This document shows positions 34,578-57,497 of a DNA stretch of 64,000 bases, one piece after another. Position 1 is the first letter of the stretch. The number at the start of each line of letters is the position of its first letter. The notes under the pieces are model-generated. The model was not told the DNA's origin. It saw nothing but the letters and a program-made list of their open reading frames with translations, and did no database searches. Position numbers and translations under genes: made by a program. The stretch is from Agromyces mediolanus (GTDB lineage Bacteria > Actinomycetota > Actinomycetes > Actinomycetales > Microbacteriaceae), in assembly GCF_014648575.1 (NCBI RefSeq), contig NZ_BMRJ01000001.1:86714-150713 (forward strand), given 5' to 3'.

Positions 34578-34930
34578 GGTTCGCTGAGCTTGTCGAAGCG
34601 GTGGTTCGCTGAGCTCGGTTGGTTCGCTGAGCTTGTCGAAGCGAGTCGAGTTCGCTGAGTTCGGTTGGTTCGCTGAGCTTGTCGAAGCGGGTCGAGTTCG
34701 CTTCGACAGGCTCAGCGAACCAACGTGGAGGTCGCTTCGACAGGCTCAGCGAACCAACGTGGTGTTCGCTTCGACGGGCTCAGCGAACCAACGTGGTGTT
34801 CGCTTCGACGGGCTCAGCGAGCCAAGGTGGAGTTCGCTTCGACGGGCTCAGCGAGCCAAGGTGGAGTTCGCTTCGACAGGCTCAGCGAACCAGCTCGGGC
34901 TCAGCGAACCAACCGAGCTCAGCGAACCGG
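34578..34930. repeat. Repeat cluster A: head-to-head arrays of a 20-24 bp repeat
   Basis: Left part: three full copies of TTCGCTGAGCTTGTCGAAGC-type (34578-34600, 34621-34643, 34667-34689) plus two partial copies. Right part: six full copies in the opposite orientation, GCTTCGACAGGCTCAGCGAA-type (34699-34722, 34733-34756, 34767-34790, 34801-34824, 34835-34858, 34869-34892), plus two partial. The switch lies at about 34694. Genes on both sides run into the cluster, so each transcript reads the repeat in the same sense. The final partial copy contains the lacI stop codon. Confidence 0.92.
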
Positions 34931-47920: not shown

Positions 47921-49555
47921 ATGTCGATGTCCCGCCGCACGCCGCGACTGGCCGGGGGCGCCGCCGCCCTCGCCGCCGCCGTGCTCCTCGCCGGCTGCAC
48001 CGCCGCCGGCCCGTCCCCCGCCAAGGGCACCGCCCCCGAGCTCACCGAGTCGCTGCCCGCCCCGAGCACCGAGGTCGAGCGCCTCGACTGGGCGCTCTAC
48101 GCCGAACCGTCCTCGCTCGACCCCATCTACCCGAACGACTTCCCGCCGATGGAGGTGCTCTCGAACGTCTGCGAGAGCCTCATGCGCATCGCGCCGGACT
48201 TCACGATCGAGCCCGCGCTCGCCGAGTCGTTCGAGCAGCCCGACCCGCTGACGCTCGTCTACACGCTCCGCGACGGGGTGACGTTCCACAGCGGGGCGCC
48301 GCTCACCGCGGACGACGTCGTCTACAGCCTGAACCGCTCGCGCAGCGACGAGCTCGGCTCGTTCCACACCGCCGTGTACGCGAACGTCGCCGACATCGTC
48401 GCGACCGCCCCGAACCAGGTGACGATCACGCTCACGGCACCCGACCAGACGCTGTCGCAGGCGCTCGCGACCGGCGCCGGCCGCATCGTGAACCGGGCGT
48501 CGACCGAGGCGCAGGGCACCGACTTCGGCACCCCCGGCTCCGACATCGACTGCACCGGCCCGTACACGCTCGCCTCCTGGCGGGCCGGCGAGGCGATCAC
48601 CCTCGAGCGCTTCGACGACTACTGGGACGACTCGCTGCCCTCGCTCGTGGCCGAGGTCGACTTCTCCTTCGTGCGCGACCCCGCCGCGCGGGTGAACGCG
48701 CTGCTGTCCGGCGAGGTCGACGGCACCTGGGGCGTCCCCGCCTCGGGCTTCGCCCGGCTGCAGGGCGGCGGGCAGGGTACGCTCGCCTTCGGCCGCACCT
48801 CCGGCAGCTACGTCGCGATGGTGACCTCGCTCGACGGCGCGCTCGCCGATCCGCGGATCAGGCAGGCGCTCGCGATGAGCATCGACCGGGAGGGGATCAT
48901 CGCCGCCGCCGTCGCCGGCGCGGCCGACCCGCTCGACGCGCCCGCCTCGCCCGGTACCTGGGGCTTCGCCCGCGAGGAGTTCGAGCAGGCCTACCAGGAG
49001 ATCGCGGACGCGAGCGGCGGCCTCGAGGAGGCGAAGGCGCTCGTCGCCGAGGCCGGCGTGCCGAGCGAGACGCTCACCATCGCGGTGACGAACTCGCAGG
49101 CGGAGATGCCGATCATCGGCGCCGAGGTGCAGCGCGCCGCGCAGGCGATCGGGCTCGAGGCGGAACTCACCTCGCTGCCCGCCGACGGCTACAACGCGCT
49201 GTACAGCGACCCGGCCGCCCGCGACGGCATCGACCTGATCTTCTCGCTCTGGCAGACCGACTTCCCGGACCCGACGCAGATCTACCAGTACCTCGAGAGC
49301 GACAACTTCTTCAACCTCTCGGGATGGTCGGACGCGGAGTTCGACCAGGCGATCGACGCCTCGCGGGCGAGCTCGGACGACGCCGAGCGGGCCGCCTCGC
49401 TCATCGCGGCCCAGTCGATCGAGATCGACGACCCGACGTGGCTGCCGATCTACACCCCGTACAACGCGGTGTTCCTCGGGAAGGGCCTGACCGGGGCGCC
49501 GACCGCCGCCGTGCAGCTCAACTACCCCTGGGCGGCGATGATCGGCGGCGAGTAG
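47921..49555 (+). CDS. Family 5 ABC substrate-binding lipoprotein 2
   Basis: 544 residues, lipobox LAGC, clear paralog of the first binding protein in the same operon (same motifs ALAESFEQPDPLTLVYTLRDG, AAMIGG end) but well diverged. AAGGAGAG precedes the ATG at 47921. One importer with two binding proteins suggests two ligand classes for the same catabolic operon. The repeat cluster B starts right after its stop. Confidence 0.93.
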   Translation: MSMSRRTPRLAGGAAALAAAVLLAGCTAAGPSPAKGTAPELTESLPAPSTEVERLDWALYAEPSSLDPIYPNDFPPMEVLSNVCESLMRIAPDFTIEPALAESFEQPDPLTLVYTLRDGVTFHSGAPLTADDVVYSLNRSRSDELGSFHTAVYANVADIVATAPNQVTITLTAPDQTLSQALATGAGRIVNRASTEAQGTDFGTPGSDIDCTGPYTLASWRAGEAITLERFDDYWDDSLPSLVAEVDFSFVRDPAARVNALLSGEVDGTWGVPASGFARLQGGGQGTLAFGRTSGSYVAMVTSLDGALADPRIRQALAMSIDREGIIAAAVAGAADPLDAPASPGTWGFAREEFEQAYQEIADASGGLEEAKALVAEAGVPSETLTIAVTNSQAEMPIIGAEVQRAAQAIGLEAELTSLPADGYNALYSDPAARDGIDLIFSLWQTDFPDPTQIYQYLESDNFFNLSGWSDAEFDQAIDASRASSDDAERAASLIAAQSIEIDDPTWLPIYTPYNAVFLGKGLTGAPTAAVQLNYPWAAMIGGE

Positions 49556-49560
49556 GGCTC

Positions 49561-49891
49561 TGGTTCGCTGAGCGTCCTGGTTCGCTGAGCTCGTCGAAGC
49601 GAGGAGCCGCTTGGCTCGCTGAGCTCGTCGAAGCGAGGAGTCCGCTTGGTTCGCTGAGCTTGTCGAAGCGAGGAGTCCGCTTCGACGGGCTCAGCGGACC
49701 AGTCCATCTGCCGCCGCTTCGACGGGCTCAGCGGACCAGCCCGCGCCGCTTCGACGGGCTCAGCGGACTAGCCCGCGCCGCTTCGACAGGCTCAGCGGTC
49801 CAGTCCGCCCGCGCCGCTTCGACGGGCTCAGCGAACCAGCCCGCCCGCGCCGCTTCGACAGGCTCAGCGGTCCACCGGGCTCAGCGAGCCG
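49561..49891. repeat. Repeat cluster B: second head-to-head array of the same repeat
   Basis: Left: one partial and three full copies in the TTCGCTGAGCTCGTCGAAGC orientation (49579-49601, 49613-49635, 49648-49670). Right: six full opposite copies (49678-49701, 49715-49738, 49747-49770, 49779-49802, 49815-49838, 49851-49874) and a partial copy. Lies between convergent genes like cluster A, with the same 3+6 full-copy layout. Several right-hand copies carry GCGGACC in place of GCGAACC. The last partial copy contains the esterase stop codon. Confidence 0.92.
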
Positions 49892-50924
49892 CCGGCCCCA
49901 GCGCCGCGTGCAGGAACGCCGCCACCCGCGCGCGCATCGACGCGTCGAGGATGCCGATCGAGTGCGCCGACCCCGGCACCACGAGCGATTCGACGGGAAC
50001 CCCGGCCGCCTGCAACGCGGCGACGAACGAGGTCTGCTGCCCGAGCGGGATGACCTCCGCATCCGACTGGGCGAGGAACACGGGCGGATCGCTCGCATCC
50101 ACATGCGTCGCCGCGGATGCCTCGACCGCCGCCCCGCACGAGGCGTCGCCGGGATCGCAGCCGAGGTAGTCGCTCACGACGGAGCGCAGCCACGGGGACG
50201 CGCCGTCGGCGTCGAGCGCGCGCCCGGTGAGTCCGAGCGGGCCGGACAGCTCGGCGACGGCCGCCACTCGCGAGCCGGTGTCGAGCGGCCCGTCGCCGCG
50301 GGTGCCGAGCAGGGCGGCCAGGCTGCCGCCGGCCGAACCGCCGAAGGCGCCGATGCGGCCTGGGTCGATGCCGTACTCCGCGAGCTGCTCGGGCTCGCGC
50401 AGCCACTCCACCGCGAGCGCCACGTCATCGAGCTGCGCGGGGAACACCGCGTCGGGCACGAGCCGGTAGTTCACCGAGACGGCCACGAAGCCCTCGCTCG
50501 CGAGCCAGAGGCAGACGTTGCGCCAGTCCGCGTTCGCCTTGTCGCCGCGCGCCCAGCTGCCGCCGTGGATCGAGACGACCGCGGGCAGCGCGCCCGCCGC
50601 GCCATCCGTTCCGTCGTCAGTCGTCGCGGCCGTGCTCGCGGGGCGGCACACGTCGAGCGTGAGCAGCGTGCCGTCCTCGCGCGCGCCGTACGGGAGGTCC
50701 TCGTCGACGACGAGATCGCTCGGCGCCTCGAAGGTGCGGATGCCGATCGGCACGACGCTCGCGAGCTCGCTGCGGGACTCCGCGGCGTCGGGGTCGATGG
50801 GCTGCAGCGGCAGGTGGAAGCCGGAGAGCACGCCCGTCACGGCGATGCAGGCGAGGGCGGCAGCGGCGACCAGCACCAGGCGCGTGCGCCCGCCGCGACC
50901 GCCGGAGGAACGAGTGCGGGTCAC
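49881..50924 (-). CDS. Secreted or membrane-anchored alpha/beta hydrolase (esterase)
   Basis: 347 residues, GTG start at 50924 with GGAG upstream. One N-terminal hydrophobic segment (15-35). Hydrolase features are the oxyanion-hole HGGSWARGDKAN, nucleophile GGSAGGS, an Asp in FLAQSDAEVIP and the His in PGSAHSIGI, as in BD-FAE/lipase-type esterases. The TGA stop and the last two codons lie within a repeat of cluster B. It follows the GNAT gene by 13 bases. Confidence 0.88.
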   Translation of the reverse strand: MTRTRSSGGRGGRTRLVLVAAAALACIAVTGVLSGFHLPLQPIDPDAAESRSELASVVPIGIRTFEAPSDLVVDEDLPYGAREDGTLLTLDVCRPASTAATTDDGTDGAAGALPAVVSIHGGSWARGDKANADWRNVCLWLASEGFVAVSVNYRLVPDAVFPAQLDDVALAVEWLREPEQLAEYGIDPGRIGAFGGSAGGSLAALLGTRGDGPLDTGSRVAAVAELSGPLGLTGRALDADGASPWLRSVVSDYLGCDPGDASCGAAVEASAATHVDASDPPVFLAQSDAEVIPLGQQTSFVAALQAAGVPVESLVVPGSAHSIGILDASMRARVAAFLHAALGPAAR

Positions 50925-50937
50925 GGGGGCTCCGGGT

Positions 50938-51477
50938 TCAGGGGTGCAGCGATGCTACCTCTGCGTGGGCCGAACGCGAAGTCAGCGCCTTCGCCATGCA
51001 GACGCTGTACTCCTCGCCGATGTAGGGACCGAACAGCGGCACGGGCCGGTAGCCGTGCTTCGCGTACAGCGCCTGCGCGGGCAGGTGCCGGGTGCCGGTC
51101 TCGAGCACGATCTCCCGCACGCCTCGGCTCGCGGCATCCGCCTCGACCGCCTCGAGCAGGCGACCGGCGACGCCGAGCCCCCTGGCGCGCTCGTCGACGA
51201 ACATACGCTTGAGCTCGCCCCGCCCGGCGAAGTCGGCCGCGTGCTCGTCGTCCGCGTGACCGCCAACGACGAGCGCGGCGATGCCGAGCGCGGCACCCGA
51301 CTCGTCGCGGGCGACGAAGAGCCGGATGCCCGGCTGCTCGAGCTGCCCCACGTCGAGCAGGAAGCACGCCTCGGGCGGGTAGCCGAGCGAGAAGGAGTAC
51401 TCGCTGCTGCCGGCGAGGAGGCGCTCGACCTCAGGCTGGCGGGGCGGTTCGATGCGGACGGTCACGGCGCTGGTCAC
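50938..51477 (-). CDS. GNAT-family N-acetyltransferase
   Basis: 179 residues, GTG start. Acetyl-CoA-binding core: GELKRMFVDERARGLGVAGRLLEAVEADA (R-x-x-G-x-G/A type loop), then IVLETGTRHLPAQALYAKHGYRPV. Substrate unknown. Probably co-transcribed with the esterase downstream. Confidence 0.9.
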   Translation of the reverse strand: MTSAVTVRIEPPRQPEVERLLAGSSEYSFSLGYPPEACFLLDVGQLEQPGIRLFVARDESGAALGIAALVVGGHADDEHAADFAGRGELKRMFVDERARGLGVAGRLLEAVEADAASRGVREIVLETGTRHLPAQALYAKHGYRPVPLFGPYIGEEYSVCMAKALTSRSAHAEVASLHP

Positions 51478-51756
51478 GCGGCGAGGCTACGCGGCGCGTG
51501 TTTCCGCGGGATTTCGGCGCCCGGTGCGGATGCCCGGCGCTTTCCCAGCGGCGATCGGGTATCGTTGGCGGGTCGGTTCTGGACACCGCGCTGTGCGCGG
51601 ATGGGTTTGTGAGTCCTGAGGGCCGGTTCCGCAGCATCAGGCTGCGGATAGTCACCGTATGTGAACGGCCCCGGTCGACGATGCTCCCGGGTTCTCGGTG
51701 CGCCGCGCCTCGCGGCGGCACCGCCATGTACTCGAATACAACCCAGGAAGCACCAT
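51478..51756 (+). promoter_or_regulatory. Promoter and long 5-prime leader of the DEAD-box helicase
   Basis: A TATCGT hexamer at 51560-51565 would start transcription near 51572 and leave a leader of about 185 bases. It contains a clean hairpin (CCGCAG-CATCAG-CTGCGG, 51630-51648). Long structured leaders are typical of cold-induced helicase genes; regulation by temperature is inference. Confidence 0.45.
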
Positions 51757-54069
51757 ATGCCGAAGAACAAGAAGCCCGCGGGCGGACGAGCCCACGACTT
51801 CGACCCCTCGTACGCGAAGAGCAGCCGCGCCGGTCGCCCGGCCGGCAGCGGCAAGCCCGGCTCGCGCAGCCCCGGCCACCGCGGCTACCGCCCCGAGGAG
51901 ACCTCCGAGCGCAAGCCGCGCTGGTCGCGCGACGAGCGCACCGCGAGCGGCCGCGCCCCGCACCGCTCCGTGCGGGACGGCCGCGACGATCGTCCGGCTC
52001 GTTCCTACGATCGGGATGAGCGTGCGCCGCGTCGCTTCGACCGTGACGACCGTCCGCGTCGGGATGACCGGCCGGCTCGCTCGTTCGATCGGGATGATCG
52101 TGCGCCGCGTCGTTCGTTCGATCGGGATGACCGTCCGGCTCGGTCGTACGATCGGGATGATCGTGCTCCTCGTCGCTTCGATCGTGACGACCGCGCGCCT
52201 CGTCGTTCGTTCGATCGGGATGACCGGGCGCCGCGTCGCGACTTCGATCGGGATGACCGGGCGCCGCGTCGCTTCGAGCGTGATGGCGCTTCGACGGGCT
52301 CAGCGAACCAGCGTGGCCCGCGTCGCGACTTCGATCGGGATGACCGGGCGCCGCGTCGCTTCGAGCGTGACGACCGTGCCCCCCGTCGTTCGTTCGATCG
52401 GGACGAGCGTCCGCGTCGTTCGTTCGATCGGGACGACCGTCCGGCTCGCTCGTTCGACCGTGATGACCGTGCCCCCCGTCGTTCGTTCGATCGGGACGGC
52501 GCTTCGACGGGCTCAGCGAACCAGCGCGGACCGCGTCGTTTCGAGCGTGATGGCGCTTCGACGGGCTCAGCGAACCAGCGCGGCCCAGGTCGTTCCTTCG
52601 ACCGTGACGAGCGCGGTTCGCGCCGCGACTTCGACCGTCCCGGCTTCCGCGACTCGGAGCGCCGCCCTTCGGCGTTCTACCCGGCGAAGGACGAGCGCAG
52701 CCGCTTCACCCCCGAGGACGACGTCGTGCTCGAGCGTCTCGAGGCCCAGGCCATCCAGGCCGACGCGGTCGACGGCATCGGCTTCGGGGAGCTCGGCCTC
52801 GGCGGCAACATCGTCCGCGCCCTGAAGGAGCTCGGCGCCGAGTCGCCGTTCCCGATCCAGGCGGCGACGATCCCCGTCGTGCTCGAGGGGCGCGACGTGC
52901 TCGGCCGAGGCCGCACCGGCTCCGGCAAGACGATCGCCTTCGGCGCGCCGACGGTCGAGCGGCTCATGCAGCTCTGGGCCGAGCAGCAGCGCGACGTCGA
53001 GAACGGCCCCGACGGCCGCCGCAAGCGCCAGATGGGTCGCGCGCCCCGCGCCCTGATCCTCGCGCCGACTCGTGAGCTCGCGCTCCAGATCGACCGCACC
53101 GTGCAGCCGATCGCCCAGTCGGTCGGGCTCTTCACCACGCAGGTCTACGGCGGCGTGCCGCAGGCCCGCCAGGTGGGCGCGCTCCGCCGGGGCGTCGACA
53201 TCGTCATCGGCACCCCCGGCCGCATCGAGGACCTGCTCGCGCAGGGGCACCTCGACCTCTCGGACATCCGCATCACGGTGCTCGACGAGGCCGACCACAT
53301 GTGCGACCTCGGCTTCCTCGAGCCGGTGCAGCGCATCCTCCGCGAGACCCGCGACGGCGGTCAGAAGCTGCTCTTCTCGGCGACCCTCGACACCGGGGTG
53401 GCCGCGCTCGTCGAGGAGTTCCTCGTCGACCCGGCCGTGCACGAGGTCGCGGGCGAGGACCAGGCCTCCGGCACCATCGAGCACCGCGTCTTCGTGATCG
53501 ACAACCGCGACAAGCGCGACATCGTCGCCCAGCTCGCCGACCGCGACGGCAAGACCCTCGTGTTCTCGCGCACCCGTGCGTTCGCCGAGGACCTCACCGA
53601 GCACCTCGAGGATGCCGGCGTGCGCGCCGTCGCCCTGCACGGCGACCTGAACCAGTCGCGCCGCACCCGCAACCTGCAGCAGCTCACGAGCGGCCGCGTC
53701 GACGTGCTCGTTGCGACGGACGTCGCGGCCCGAGGCATCCACGTCGACGACATCGACCTGGTCATCCAGGCCGACGCGCCCGACGAGTACAAGACCTATC
53801 TGCACCGCTCGGGCCGCACCGGCCGCGCCGGTCGCACCGGCCGGGTCGTGACCCTCATCCCGCGCAACCGCCAGCGTCGCATGAACGAGCTGCTCGACCG
53901 CGCCGAGATCGAGGTCGACTTCGAGGACGTGCGCCTCGGCGACGAGCTGCTCTTCGACCTCGGGCCCGTCGAGGTCGCGGCGCCGGTCGAGGCTGCTGCT
54001 GCGGAGGCATCCGACGCGGACGCCGAGCAGTCCGCCGACGCCGAGCCGGTGGCGAGCGCCGCCGAGTAG
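51757..54069 (+). CDS. DEAD-box RNA helicase with Arg/Asp repeat arm carrying inserted repeats
   Basis: 770 residues. N-terminal arm (about 65-300) is tandem RDDRAPRR/SFDRD-type low complexity, likely RNA-binding and disordered. Helicase core from about 325: Q motif FPIQAAT, motif I GRTGSGKT, Ia APTRELALQ, TPGR, DEAD (about 510), SAT, VATDVAARGIHVDD and HRSGRTGRAG. Acidic Ala-rich C-terminal tail. Three copies of a dispersed repeat interrupt the arm in frame as GASTGSANQ (177-185, 248-256, 266-274). ATG at 51757 has AGGAAG upstream. Confidence 0.93.
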   Translation: MPKNKKPAGGRAHDFDPSYAKSSRAGRPAGSGKPGSRSPGHRGYRPEETSERKPRWSRDERTASGRAPHRSVRDGRDDRPARSYDRDERAPRRFDRDDRPRRDDRPARSFDRDDRAPRRSFDRDDRPARSYDRDDRAPRRFDRDDRAPRRSFDRDDRAPRRDFDRDDRAPRRFERDGASTGSANQRGPRRDFDRDDRAPRRFERDDRAPRRSFDRDERPRRSFDRDDRPARSFDRDDRAPRRSFDRDGASTGSANQRGPRRFERDGASTGSANQRGPGRSFDRDERGSRRDFDRPGFRDSERRPSAFYPAKDERSRFTPEDDVVLERLEAQAIQADAVDGIGFGELGLGGNIVRALKELGAESPFPIQAATIPVVLEGRDVLGRGRTGSGKTIAFGAPTVERLMQLWAEQQRDVENGPDGRRKRQMGRAPRALILAPTRELALQIDRTVQPIAQSVGLFTTQVYGGVPQARQVGALRRGVDIVIGTPGRIEDLLAQGHLDLSDIRITVLDEADHMCDLGFLEPVQRILRETRDGGQKLLFSATLDTGVAALVEEFLVDPAVHEVAGEDQASGTIEHRVFVIDNRDKRDIVAQLADRDGKTLVFSRTRAFAEDLTEHLEDAGVRAVALHGDLNQSRRTRNLQQLTSGRVDVLVATDVAARGIHVDDIDLVIQADAPDEYKTYLHRSGRTGRAGRTGRVVTLIPRNRQRRMNELLDRAEIEVDFEDVRLGDELLFDLGPVEVAAPVEAAAAEASDADAEQSADAEPVASAAE
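52287..52310 (+). repeat. Dispersed repeat inside the helicase gene, copy 1
   Basis: GCTTCGACGGGCTCAGCGAA-type 24-bp repeat, same as the right-hand copies of clusters A and B. Read in the helicase frame it encodes ASTGSANQ. The flanking protein repeats continue normally on both sides. Confidence 0.95.
52500..52523 (+). repeat. Dispersed repeat inside the helicase gene, copy 2
   Basis: Same 24-bp repeat, 213 bases (71 codons) after copy 1, same orientation and same reading frame, identical peptide. Confidence 0.95.
52554..52577 (+). repeat. Dispersed repeat inside the helicase gene, copy 3
   Basis: Same repeat, 54 bases (18 codons) after copy 2. Copies 2 and 3 share flanks, so one may be a tandem duplication of the other with the surrounding arm. 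Confidence 0.95.
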
Positions 54070-54102
54070 TCGCGACGGTCGCGCCCGCGACCCCGCATCG
54101 AG

Positions 54103-54142
54103 AGAATCCGTCCGTCGCCCACCGGGGCGCCGGGCGGATTCT
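54103..54142 (+). terminator. Long hairpin terminator after the helicase gene
   Basis: AGAATCCG at 54103 pairs with CGGATTCT ending 54142, and the inside CGCCC-ACCG-GGGCG continues the stem, giving about 17 paired positions with two mismatches. A T/C-rich run (TCTTCCGTTTCC) follows. 33 bases past the stop. Confidence 0.75.
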
Positions 54143-54188
54143 TCCGTTTCCGGGGACGCCCCTGACCCGCTCCGGGCGCGCGGGCCGC

Positions 54189-54194
54189 TACCGT
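54189..54194 (+). promoter_or_regulatory. -10 hexamer of a leaderless lipoprotein gene
   Basis: TACCGT six bases before the ATG at 54201 with no ribosome site; same geometry as at 15919, 17153 and 20308. Confidence 0.5.
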
Positions 54195-54200
54195 GGCGAC

Positions 54201-55307
54201 ATGCGCTCAGTTGTCGTGCTCCCGGCCGTCGCGGCCGTCGCCCTCCTCCTCGCCGGATGCGCGGCGCCCGCGCCGACGCCGACCACCTCGGCCCCGAGCG
54301 AAACGCCCGAGCCGACGACCATCGCGGGCCCCCTCGACTGCGATGCGCTCGTGCCCGCCGATGTCGTCGCTGCGGCGATGAGCCCGGCGGGCGACGGGAC
54401 GCCGCAGCCCGAGGCGGCGATCCAGGGCAATGCCGCACTCGGTGCCATCGAGTTGGCGGCGGCCGGCGGACTCGGCTGCTCCTGGCGCATTGGCCCCGCC
54501 CCGAGTGACATTTTCGGCGGCAGCGGCGAGGTCGCGTACTTGAGCGTCGAGGTGCTGCCCGGCGCTGCCGGGCAGTGGCAGCCCGCCTGGTTCGGGGATT
54601 CGCCCTCGACCGACACCGTCGAGGTCGCGGGCGTCACCGCCTCGCGGGGCGCGGGGGAGACCGGGTGGGAGCTGACCGCGCCGGTGGGTGACACCTGGAC
54701 GACGATCCGGCTCACCGCGCCGGGGCTGGTGACGGGCGGGTCCGTCTACGGCGAGTACGACGCCGAGCAGATGAACGGGCGGCTCGTCTCCGTGGGTGAG
54801 GCGGCGTTCCCCGTGCTCGCCGGGGCGAGCGCCGAGCAGCTCGACTGGCCGCGCGCCGCCGGACAGCGGCAGAGCGATGCGGTCTGCACCGGCGGTCTCG
54901 ATCCCCAGGGCATCGGGATGGCCCTCGGGGCGGGCTCGATCGAGGCGAGCGCCGTCGATCCGACCTCGTCGGCGCCGACCAGCTTCCGCGACGCGGTCGC
55001 GGCGGCCTCTCGGGCGTACCGCTGCGAGTACACCGTCGACGGCATCCCCGGTCCGACGATCGACGCGGTCATCGGTGCAGGCGAGCAGTTCGAGCTCATG
55101 TCGGAGGCCGACCTCTCCGGCGTGTACGAGCCGCTCGATCTGAGCGGCTCGCCGAGCTTCGCGGACGGGGATGCGGCCTACGTGGTGCGAGTCACCGACG
55201 GCCCGGCATCGACGGTGCTGCTCAAGGTCGGCGATTCGGTGTACCGGGTGCAGAGCCACGACGGCGCCGCCGCCGTCGCGGAAGCGGTGCTCGAGCAGAT
55301 CCGCTGA
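54201..55307 (+). CDS. Hypothetical lipoprotein
   Basis: 368 residues. Signal peptide with lipobox LAGC (about residue 20), a Thr/Pro/Ser-rich linker, then two similar-looking halves each beginning with a Cys-containing segment (LDCDALVPADVVAAAM and DAVCTGGLDPQGIGMALG) and later a CxW/CEY stretch, suggesting an internal duplication. DUF3558-like overall, but I cannot confirm a family. Role unknown, outer face of the membrane. Confidence 0.82.
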   Translation: MRSVVVLPAVAAVALLLAGCAAPAPTPTTSAPSETPEPTTIAGPLDCDALVPADVVAAAMSPAGDGTPQPEAAIQGNAALGAIELAAAGGLGCSWRIGPAPSDIFGGSGEVAYLSVEVLPGAAGQWQPAWFGDSPSTDTVEVAGVTASRGAGETGWELTAPVGDTWTTIRLTAPGLVTGGSVYGEYDAEQMNGRLVSVGEAAFPVLAGASAEQLDWPRAAGQRQSDAVCTGGLDPQGIGMALGAGSIEASAVDPTSSAPTSFRDAVAAASRAYRCEYTVDGIPGPTIDAVIGAGEQFELMSEADLSGVYEPLDLSGSPSFADGDAAYVVRVTDGPASTVLLKVGDSVYRVQSHDGAAAVAEAVLEQIR

Positions 55308-55364
55308 GCCGGCGCCCGAAGAGCCTCGCTGACGCGCCGCCACCCGGGCGTGCGCAGTCGGGAC

Positions 55365-57497
55365 TCAGCCGCGGAGTGCGAGCACGAAGGGGAGCACCTC
55401 GCCGGCGCCGGCCTCGCGCAGCGTGCGGGCGGCGACCGTGAGGGTCCACCGGCTGTCCGCCTGGTCGTCGACGAGCAGTACGGGCCCGTCGGGCAGTTCG
55501 AGGCCGTCGGCGGAGAACCGCCCCCACACGCCGGCCAGCCGGAACGCGCTGTTGCCGCCGGGCTCGCCGCTCGGGCCGCCGCCGACGGGCTGCAGCGCGC
55601 CGAGGTAGGGCAGTCGGCCGATCTCGGCGAGCCCGCGGGCGAGCGAGTCGACGAGCTGCGGGCGCGAGCGCGAGGGCATTGCGACGACGGCCGCCGGGCG
55701 CTCGGCCCAGCCCCAGCCCGCGAGCACGCGCACGCAGGCGTCGAGCACGCGCGGCGGTACGGGCTGGTCGGGGGCGCCCGCGGCGAAGAGTTCGCGCAGC
55801 ACGCCGCCCCAGCCGAGGTCGGTGAGGCGGGCGAGCGCCCGCCCCTCGGCCGCCCTGGCTTCGACGGGGATGCGCCCCTTCACCGGCACGCCGAGGGAGT
55901 CGGCGCCCGTGGGCCACTGCGCGCGCGGCTCGATGGGGACGCCCACCCGGTCGAGCGCGCCGCGGGCGGCGGTCGTCGCCTCCTCGCCGATCGCGGCGGG
56001 GTACCAGGGCCCGGCGCAGGTGTCGCATCGCCCGCACGGGGTCGCGGTGTCGTCGTCGAGGCTGCGCTGCAGGTAGGCCATGCGGCACTCGGTCGTGCGC
56101 TCGTACTCGAGCATGTGCTGCTGCTCGGCGATCCGCTCGGCCGCGATGCGGCGGTAGCGCTCGGCGTCGTAGACCCAGGGCTCGCCGGTCGCGACCCAGC
56201 CACCCTGCACCCGCCGCACCGCCCCGTCGACGTCGAGCACCTTGAGCAGCAGCTCGAGCGGCGTGCGGCGGATGTCGACCATCGCCTCGAGCGCCGGCGT
56301 CGACACGGGCTGCTCGCCGAGGGCGGCGATGACGCGGCTCGCGCGCTCTTCGTCGGGCATGGAGGCGGTGGCGAAGTAGTGCCAGATGTCGCGGTCTTCG
56401 ACCCCTGGGAGGAGCAGCACGTCGGCATTGTCGGTCGCACGGCCCGCGCGGCCCACCTGCTGGTAGTAGGCCACGGGCGAGGAGGGCGCGCCGAGGTGCA
56501 GCACGAAGCCGAGGTCGGGCTTGTCGAATCCCATGCCGAGCGCGCTCGTGGCCACGAGGGCCTTGACCTCGTTGCGCTTCAGCATGCCCTCGGACTCGGC
56601 CCGTTCGTCGGGGTCGGTCTGGCCGGTGTACGCGCGGACCTCGTGGCCGTGCTCGCGCAGCAGCCGGGCGGTGTCGACGGCCGCGGCGACCGTGAGCGTG
56701 TAGATGATGCCCGAGCCCGGCAGCTCGTCGAGGTGGCCGAGCAGCCAGGCGAGCCGGCTCGGCGAGTCGGGCAGTTCGAGCACCCCGAGGCGCAGCGAGG
56801 CCCGGGCGAGCGGCCCGCGGATGGTCAGCACCTCGGCCGAGGCATCCGCCCCGCCCGTCGTGAGCCGGCCCGAGTCGTCGGCGACCGTCGCGCCGAGCTG
56901 CTCGGCGACGTCGGCGACGACGCGGCTGTTCGCGGTGGCGGTGGTCGCGAGCACCGGCACGCCCGCGGGCATGCGGGCGATGAGCTCGCGCAGGCGTCGG
57001 TAGTCGGGCCGGAAGTCGTGCCCCCAGTCGCTGATGCAGTGCGCCTCGTCGATGACGAGCAGACCGATGCGCTCGACGAGCCGCGGCAGCTGCGTCTCGC
57101 GGAAGGCCGGGTTGTTGAGCCGCTCGGGGGAGACGAGCAGCACGTCGACCTCGTCGGCGGCGAGGCGCTGCTCGACCTCGCGCCACTCGTGCGCGTTGGT
57201 GGAGTTGATGGCGACCGCGCGCACCCCGGCGCGCTCGGCCGCGGCGATCTGGTCGCGCATGAGGGCGATGAGCGGCGAGACGAGCAGGGTGGGGCCCGCG
57301 CCGGCGCGGCGAAGCAGCAGCGTCGAGACGAAGTACACGGCGGACTTGCCCCAGCCGGTGCGCTGCACGACGAGCGCGCGGCGGCGCTCCTCGACGAGGG
57401 CGCGGATGGCCTCGAACTGGCCGTCGTGGAAGTCGACGTCGTCGCGGCCGACGAGCTCGCGGAGGGCGTCGAGGGCGGCGGAGCGCAGTTCGGTCAT
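55365..57497 (-). CDS. recQ: RecQ-family DNA helicase fused to a phosphoribosyltransferase-like domain
   Basis: 710 residues. RecQ core: motif 0 DGQFEAIRALVE, motif I GWGKSAVYF, DEAH-type IDEAHCISDWGHDFR, TATAN, and QQVGRAGRA. The zinc-binding module has CRMAYL...CGRCDTC (four Cys) near 500. Instead of an HRDC domain the C-terminus ends in a PRPP-loop-like segment LLVDDQADSRWTLTVAARTLREAGA typical of type I phosphoribosyltransferases. ATG at 57497. Unwinds DNA in repair; the role of the appended domain is not known to me. Confidence 0.9.
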   Translation of the reverse strand: MTELRSAALDALRELVGRDDVDFHDGQFEAIRALVEERRRALVVQRTGWGKSAVYFVSTLLLRRAGAGPTLLVSPLIALMRDQIAAAERAGVRAVAINSTNAHEWREVEQRLAADEVDVLLVSPERLNNPAFRETQLPRLVERIGLLVIDEAHCISDWGHDFRPDYRRLRELIARMPAGVPVLATTATANSRVVADVAEQLGATVADDSGRLTTGGADASAEVLTIRGPLARASLRLGVLELPDSPSRLAWLLGHLDELPGSGIIYTLTVAAAVDTARLLREHGHEVRAYTGQTDPDERAESEGMLKRNEVKALVATSALGMGFDKPDLGFVLHLGAPSSPVAYYQQVGRAGRATDNADVLLLPGVEDRDIWHYFATASMPDEERASRVIAALGEQPVSTPALEAMVDIRRTPLELLLKVLDVDGAVRRVQGGWVATGEPWVYDAERYRRIAAERIAEQQHMLEYERTTECRMAYLQRSLDDDTATPCGRCDTCAGPWYPAAIGEEATTAARGALDRVGVPIEPRAQWPTGADSLGVPVKGRIPVEARAAEGRALARLTDLGWGGVLRELFAAGAPDQPVPPRVLDACVRVLAGWGWAERPAAVVAMPSRSRPQLVDSLARGLAEIGRLPYLGALQPVGGGPSGEPGGNSAFRLAGVWGRFSADGLELPDGPVLLVDDQADSRWTLTVAARTLREAGAGEVLPFVLALRG

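Follow-up and report, generated by a model that had tools for sequence, protein, structure and literature searches.

The best-known cases of palindromic repeats that invade genes in frame are those of Rickettsia and Wolbachia, intracellular bacteria for which weak selection offers a ready explanation. The palindromic elements of Rickettsia (RPEs) have no known transposase. REPINs are inverted pairs of short repeats that form a hairpin. RPEs and their in-frame fusions are reviewed in passages of PMC2229807 and PMC10969869, which give a unit size of 105–150 bp. Bacterial MITEs are described in the same passages as short, non-autonomous, partly palindromic elements that can fuse in frame with genes. 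Intragenic REPs have been described in several bacteria, with targets that include DnaE2, UvrA, and RNA helicases (sections of PMC3733652; Di Nocera et al. 2013). According to those sections of PMC3733652, CGTC REPs lack a dedicated transposase, and their single unit is composed of an 8–9 bp stem and a 4–5 nt loop; the string "Actinobacteri" is absent from the main text of that paper.

The locus compared here lies in the window, the whole 64,000-nucleotide stretch of Agromyces mediolanus DNA that was analyzed. The preferred reading, held with a probability of roughly 0.8, is that this genome carries a non-autonomous mobile palindromic element, whose half-units and pairs would have entered coding sequences and would persist where frame and fold survive. 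Mobility is suggested by the distribution of the copies. The window contains a gene (51757–54069, + strand) for a 770 amino acid DEAD-box helicase whose N-terminal arm is rich in Arg and Asp; the protein is matched by both Pfam DEAD (PF00270) and Helicase_C (PF00271), and the start at 51757 was also picked by the gene finder. Within this open reading frame, GCTTCGACGGGCTCAGCGAA occurs exactly at 52288–52307, 52501–52520, and 52555–52574, always on one strand. The corresponding type-A half-units (copy 1, 52288–52313; copy 2, 52501–52526; copy 3, 52555–52580; all on the + strand) are translated as ASTGSANQ, in each case within GASTGSANQ. The surrounding context is RD-GASTGSANQ-RGPRR in two copies and RD-GASTGSANQ-RGPGR in one. 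The ordinary arm unit is RD-DRAPRR, than which the RD-GASTGSANQRGPRR units are 8 residues (24 nt) longer. The initial annotation, which had reported three in-frame copies of a 24-bp repeat in the same orientation, is confirmed as to the copies and the recurring unit, but the stretch identical among the three is at least 26 nt (GCTTCGACGGGCTCAGCGAACCAGCG). Its spacings of 213 and 54 are also correct, but multiples of three are automatic in an open frame and add no evidence.

The region immediately upstream of the helicase start (51555–51756) is strongly conserved in five other Agromyces loci and partly conserved in Leifsonia and Herbiconiux (8 sequences aligned). Its consensus fold has 52 pairs, 14 of them with at least one pair-keeping double change, and a covariation term of only 0.05; it had no Rfam match at E values up to 1. 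This region may be a structured 5' leader.

When up to three mismatches were allowed, GCTTCGACGGGCTCAGCGAA matched 21 times in the 64 kb; 100 dinucleotide shuffles gave a mean of 0.03 matches. Three of these copies are those in the helicase and the other 18 sit in two intergenic arrays. Each array lies between convergent genes, has no assigned strand, and is composed of three reverse and then six forward type-A half-units with an inverted pair in the middle. In the first array (34580–34889), the pair at 34664–34724 forms a 28-bp hairpin (−52.9 kcal/mol, z −10.3), and in the second (49581–49871), the pair at 49648–49700 forms a 23-bp hairpin (−43.9 kcal/mol, z −7.0). The repeat unit is a half-palindrome of about 24 bp that exists as type A (CGCTTCGACRRGCTCAGCGAACCA) or type B (CCTTCGACRRGCTCAGGGA). 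When two half-units are inverted relative to each other, the pair, about 55 bp in length, folds into a long hairpin. No stable hairpin was obtained when four single units were folded (stems of about 4–6 bp, z −0.88 to 0.69), and the helicase half-unit likewise had no stable fold (z −0.26). The Rfam family RF02901 (AaHKsRNA41), whose cut-off is 97 bits, matches the two strands of the palindrome at 49612–49701 with lower scores of 37 and 35 bits, and this was the sole Rfam match in 48000–56000 at E values up to 1; perhaps this family also contains a palindromic repeat.

These structures bear on the possibility that the repeats are REPs of the GTAG or CGTC superfamily moved by a RAYT. The genomic habits of REPs that are set out in parts of PMC3733652 (location at 3' ends, inverted dimers, and intragenic copies) are the same as those of the Agromyces repeat, and CCA closes 20 of the 21 window copies, like the tail of CGTC elements. 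In those elements, the end consists of an unpaired CGTC, TGTC, or CCTC with a CCA tail; window copies with GACR do have (C/T)GTC on the other strand, but inside the paired stem of the inverted pair. No shared GTAG was found among the 21 aligned window copies, the stems of the single units are too short, and the Y1/RAYT transposase (PF01797) was found in 0 of 60 Agromyces genomes, with the control responding in 5 of 14. A RAYT mobilizer was rejected on this last ground, and full membership in the GTAG or CGTC REPs was rejected on the first two. REPs moved by a RAYT are therefore a very unlikely explanation.

The history of the helicase insert was followed in relatives. Loci of helicase orthologues were obtained from 59 of 60 Agromyces genomes, the window genome included; the remaining genome (G006) yielded no close orthologue and stands outside the 59 loci. 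Forty-two of the 59 could be read from the start codon, and the other 17 were left out of this set. Copies of the repeat were present in 2 of the 42 arms, namely those of the window genome (three) and A. mediolanus RA 14A.10 (four), and absent from the other 40, A. soli among them; no copy was found in the 17 incompletely read loci. The nearest named records are A. soli KACC 16215, with 95.0–97.0% nucleotide identity to the window outside the helicase-bearing segment, and A. mediolanus RA 14A.10, with 88.8–94.2% on the same basis. A. soli is the nearest relative found and has 38 genomic copies of the repeat, yet its helicase is without the insert, which requires either loss or a second event. 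The alignment of orthologous helicases, which the initial annotation had proposed as a way to find empty sites, did reveal them and upholds insertion into this gene; three separate insertions, which it had also assumed, find no support in the sequence that the copies share.

A 26-mer is common to all seven helicase copies (three in the window, four in A. mediolanus RA 14A.10) and was found nowhere else in 121 sources. The next 12 nt are identical in three of the seven, one from the window and two from A. mediolanus RA 14A.10. These shared sequences favor a single insertion that was copied within the arm over three separate ones, and the arm is itself a repeat able to copy units. Independent insertions, three in the window helicase and four in that of A. 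mediolanus RA 14A.10, would account for the different places of the copies in the two arms, and a separate event in an orthologous arm, described below, is in line with them; given the shared 26-mer, they are nonetheless unlikely. In the favored course of events, one type-A half-unit probably entered the helicase arm in an ancestor common to the window genome and A. mediolanus RA 14A.10, recombination between arm repeats would have copied it to three and four places, and the insert would have been lost from A. soli. A type-B copy (CCCTTCGACAAGCTCAGGGA) occurs in frame in the orthologous helicase arm of a Microbacteriaceae MAG (L091, 4571–4584), where it is translated as PSTSSG; this copy is an independent event.

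It is scarcely credible that the helicase peptide arose by ordinary evolution of a low-complexity Arg/Asp arm with a convergent DNA match to the intergenic repeats. In favor of this, all relatives examined have an arm that is full of repeats and differs in length, and the codons of the arm also contain GCTTCGAC, as CGC TTC GAC (R F D). The repeat, however, reads GCTTCGAC in another frame, as GCT TCG ACG (A S T), which indicates that the helicase copy is not a drifted arm unit. Each helicase copy also has the same 26 identical nt, and the same DNA is found between genes and, in other frames, in unrelated genes.

The repeat is patchily distributed. Counts of TTCGACNNGCTCAGC were 174 in the window genome, 178 in a further Agromyces genome (G069), 118 in A. 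mediolanus RA 14A.10, and 38 in A. soli, and the reversed-pattern control gave 1, 1, 2, and 3 in these four repeat-rich genomes. They are the only ones of the 60 Agromyces genomes with at least 38 copies; the next highest count is 16, and 17 of the 60 have none. At the family level, the RR form has at least one copy in 158 of 398 genomes, and the rich genomes are scattered over several genera. Other rich Microbacteriaceae genomes are G267 (162 copies), G311 (98), G153 (96), G215 (91), G103 (73), G248 (53), and G119 (40). Among 148 genomes sampled from the phylum, only that of the window was rich, and the others had at most 2 copies each.

Pairs and tandem half-unit arrays are found mostly close to gene 3' ends. 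Among gaps of at least 40 bp, those with repeats were 45 convergent, 62 tandem, and 12 divergent, and those without were 71, 202, and 117 (p 3.6e-7), the background gaps being taken from the same fetched stretches, most of which were chosen around repeats. In the 62 tandem gaps, the repeat lies at a median of 34.5 nt from the upstream 3' end and 100 nt from the downstream gene. This position, the convergent bias, and stems of 23 and 28 bp would suit intergenic hairpins that are selected 3'-end elements, such as terminators or RNA stabilizers, with the coding copies as strays. Such a role is compatible with mobility, but it leaves the coding copies unexplained and does not sit well with the patchy presence between species; this reading is somewhat unlikely.

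The preferred reading, entry of a mobile element into coding sequences, was examined in other protein genes, which were called on the fetched stretches with a home-made finder based on codon log-odds. Coding copies of both half-unit types numbered 65 in G069 (20 predicted genes), 18 in A. mediolanus RA 14A.10 (9 genes), 12 in the window genome (8 genes), and 5 in A. soli (3 genes); some of these are single matches in ordinary-looking frames, such as FDGLS, and may be due to chance (reversed control, 0–3 per genome). For the four genomes in this order, the stretches hold 110 of 178, 103 of 118, 157 of 174, and 36 of 38 type-A copies; since they were selected for their type-A places, type-B copies are underrepresented in the counts. 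By Pfam, the repeat-bearing genes of G069 encode a PheT-type protein, an M1 aminopeptidase, glycine dehydrogenase, B12-dependent methionine synthase, a P-type ATPase, a DNA polymerase III alpha-type protein, a biotin ligase, GrpE, an EF-Tu-type GTPase, a ClpB/ClpC-type ATPase, a GH3 enzyme, transport proteins, and others; pheT, metH, gcvP, and a dnaE-type gene are among the affected genes. In a PutA-type protein, copies lie between its two domains in A. soli and A. mediolanus RA 14A.10, and copies are present at the PaaB N-terminus in the window genome and A. mediolanus RA 14A.10. Insertion also occurs in folded enzymes (ClpC, MetH, GcvP, and others) and is not limited to arms like that of the helicase.

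ClpC illustrates this in a loop of its AAA_2 domain. In A. mediolanus RA 14A.10, the loop reads LFPSGSASTGSANENVIRFDMSEF and contains ASTGSAN; in 12 of 14 congeneric orthologues it is short, of the kind LFDDEGAIIRFDMSEF; and in the window genome and G069 it reads LFPSTGSG, from a type-B-like unit. The top PDB match, a ClpC/MecB chain, has an 8-residue gap at the loop. The clpC gene of A. mediolanus RA 14A.10 (L211) holds five copies in two frames, one read as ASTGSAN and four as SLRQAQG in two linkers, the latter being type B.

Eighteen G069 proteins were compared with 400 kb of the repeat-poor genome G003, with an ortholog threshold of at least 75% identity. Ten of them had orthologues, at 80–98% identity, and nine of these ten genes have extra sequence at the repeats, including eight internal sites in six genes: GcvP (two), MetH (two), P-type ATPase, DUF6421, GH3, and GrpE. 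The difference lies at the C-terminus in GNAT and at the N-terminus in ABC and BPD1, where the choice of start or stop matters. In the Clp gene, the repeat takes the place of other sequence, and the gene is just 3 nt longer on balance. The other eight proteins (PheT, PepN, CysN-like, BPD2, PntB-like, FAA/RraA, BirA, and DnaE-type) had no orthologue at or above 75% in the fetched G003 DNA, and for several of them the matching region lies outside that DNA. In G003 itself, one real-looking type-B copy was found in a predicted gene, together with one gcvP match that looks like chance. The wider search for coding copies, which the initial annotation had also proposed, showed that many genes carry the repeat in frame where their orthologues do not. 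In the flanks of seven lengthened G069 genes, codon position 3 accounts for most of the differences (e.g., MetH, 174 of 234; GrpE, 11 of 19), which indicates that constraint at the protein level still acts on these genes.

Of the unit's six reading frames, five are open. The 65 coding copies of G069 are divided by frame into ASTGSA/PSTGSG (34), LAEPVE/PEPVE (25), LRRAQR/LRQAQG (3), and SLSPSK/SLSLSK (3), and by a hand count 18 of 20 clusters fall in the first two of the five open frames (p about 5e-6). The residues encoded in the two commonest frames are polar and linker-like (for example, ASTGSA, PSTGSG, and LAEPVEA). One DNA sequence is thus used in several frames and between genes, so it is the DNA, and not the peptide, that spreads; chance or codon convergence was rejected because of this use of several frames. 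The frame bias fits the survival of polar linkers, and tolerance of such inserts would act as a filter on frames.

The way in which the copies spread may not involve transposition at all. Copies might be produced from the arrays by gene conversion, slippage, or template switching, with hairpins perhaps providing the priming, and then spread by recombination; this is a tentative but appreciable possibility. In the spacer of the 49581–49871 array, A. soli has one inverted pair, A. mediolanus RA 14A.10 has two, and the window has nine units, and these differing numbers in three close species point to quick changes of array size. At the aligned G069 and G003 sites, no target duplication or element ends could be defined, and the joints are replacement-like, not clean; together with the lack of a Y1 transposase match in the 60 genomes, this also agrees with copying without transposition. 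Dispersal to many unrelated genes in G069, and not in G003, is harder to explain in this way, and no homology at the targets was seen.

On the preferred reading of a mobile element, a broader proposal can be made, for which the chances are evenly balanced: half-palindromes of about 24 bp, for which no transposase is known, may invade, or may recently have invaded, the protein-coding genes of free-living actinobacteria. Many of the 20 affected predicted proteins of G069, translation, replication, one-carbon, and chaperone enzymes among them, would then have been lengthened in frame, mostly in frames that add polar linkers, and the repeat would be a natural linker-insertion engine, driven by some mobilizer or copying mechanism. 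Selfish-looking DNA would thus be lengthening ordinary enzymes. Because copies are dense in an actinobacterial genome and the inserts are missing from close relatives, the process can be tested, including how the DNA enters, how folded enzymes survive, and whether the inserts alter function. The odd peptides ASTGSANQ, LAEPVEA, PSTGSG, and SLRQAQG, which could pass for protein features, are also explained. Repeat words of 15–17 nt had no match in open-licence PubMed Central text, which cannot show absence from print, and the papers there that match 12-mers of the repeat look unrelated by title and abstract. No papers that link REPs, RAYTs, or dispersed repeats to Actinobacteria or Microbacterium were found in the same collection.

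Compared with the described systems, the Agromyces repeat resembles the GTAG and CGTC REPs, as presented in parts of PMC3733652, in the 3'-end location, inverted dimers, and intragenic copies in folded enzymes. It differs from GTAG REPs in that the 21 window copies have no shared end GTAG, and it is set apart from CGTC REPs, by their description rather than by a consensus, because its single unit does not form a stable hairpin. With REPINs and their RAYT it shares hairpin-forming inverted pairs, but not the Y1 transposase. Like the MITEs of PMC2229807 and PMC10969869, to the extent that these are described there, it is short, non-autonomous, partly palindromic, and in frame in genes; it does have inverted pairs, but no terminal repeats with a target duplication could be defined at the aligned sites, and no parent transposon was identified. 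It also has a likeness to RPEs and the protein-coding palindromes of Wolbachia, which in the relevant passages of PMC2229807 and PMC10969869 are short palindromic repeats placed between genes and in frame in unrelated conserved genes. The Agromyces repeat is likewise both intergenic and in frame, so the comparison with Rickettsia made in the initial annotation was apt, except that the helicase piece is a nonfolding half-unit and the palindrome is formed by the pairs. It is set apart from RPEs, as described in those passages, by its half-units and pairs, their arrangement in arrays, a presumably different sequence family, and an actinobacterial host. On these comparisons, the tested REP features (GTAG tag, single-unit stem, and RAYT) are absent, and the Agromyces repeat works like an RPE, but with a different unit size, architecture, and host.
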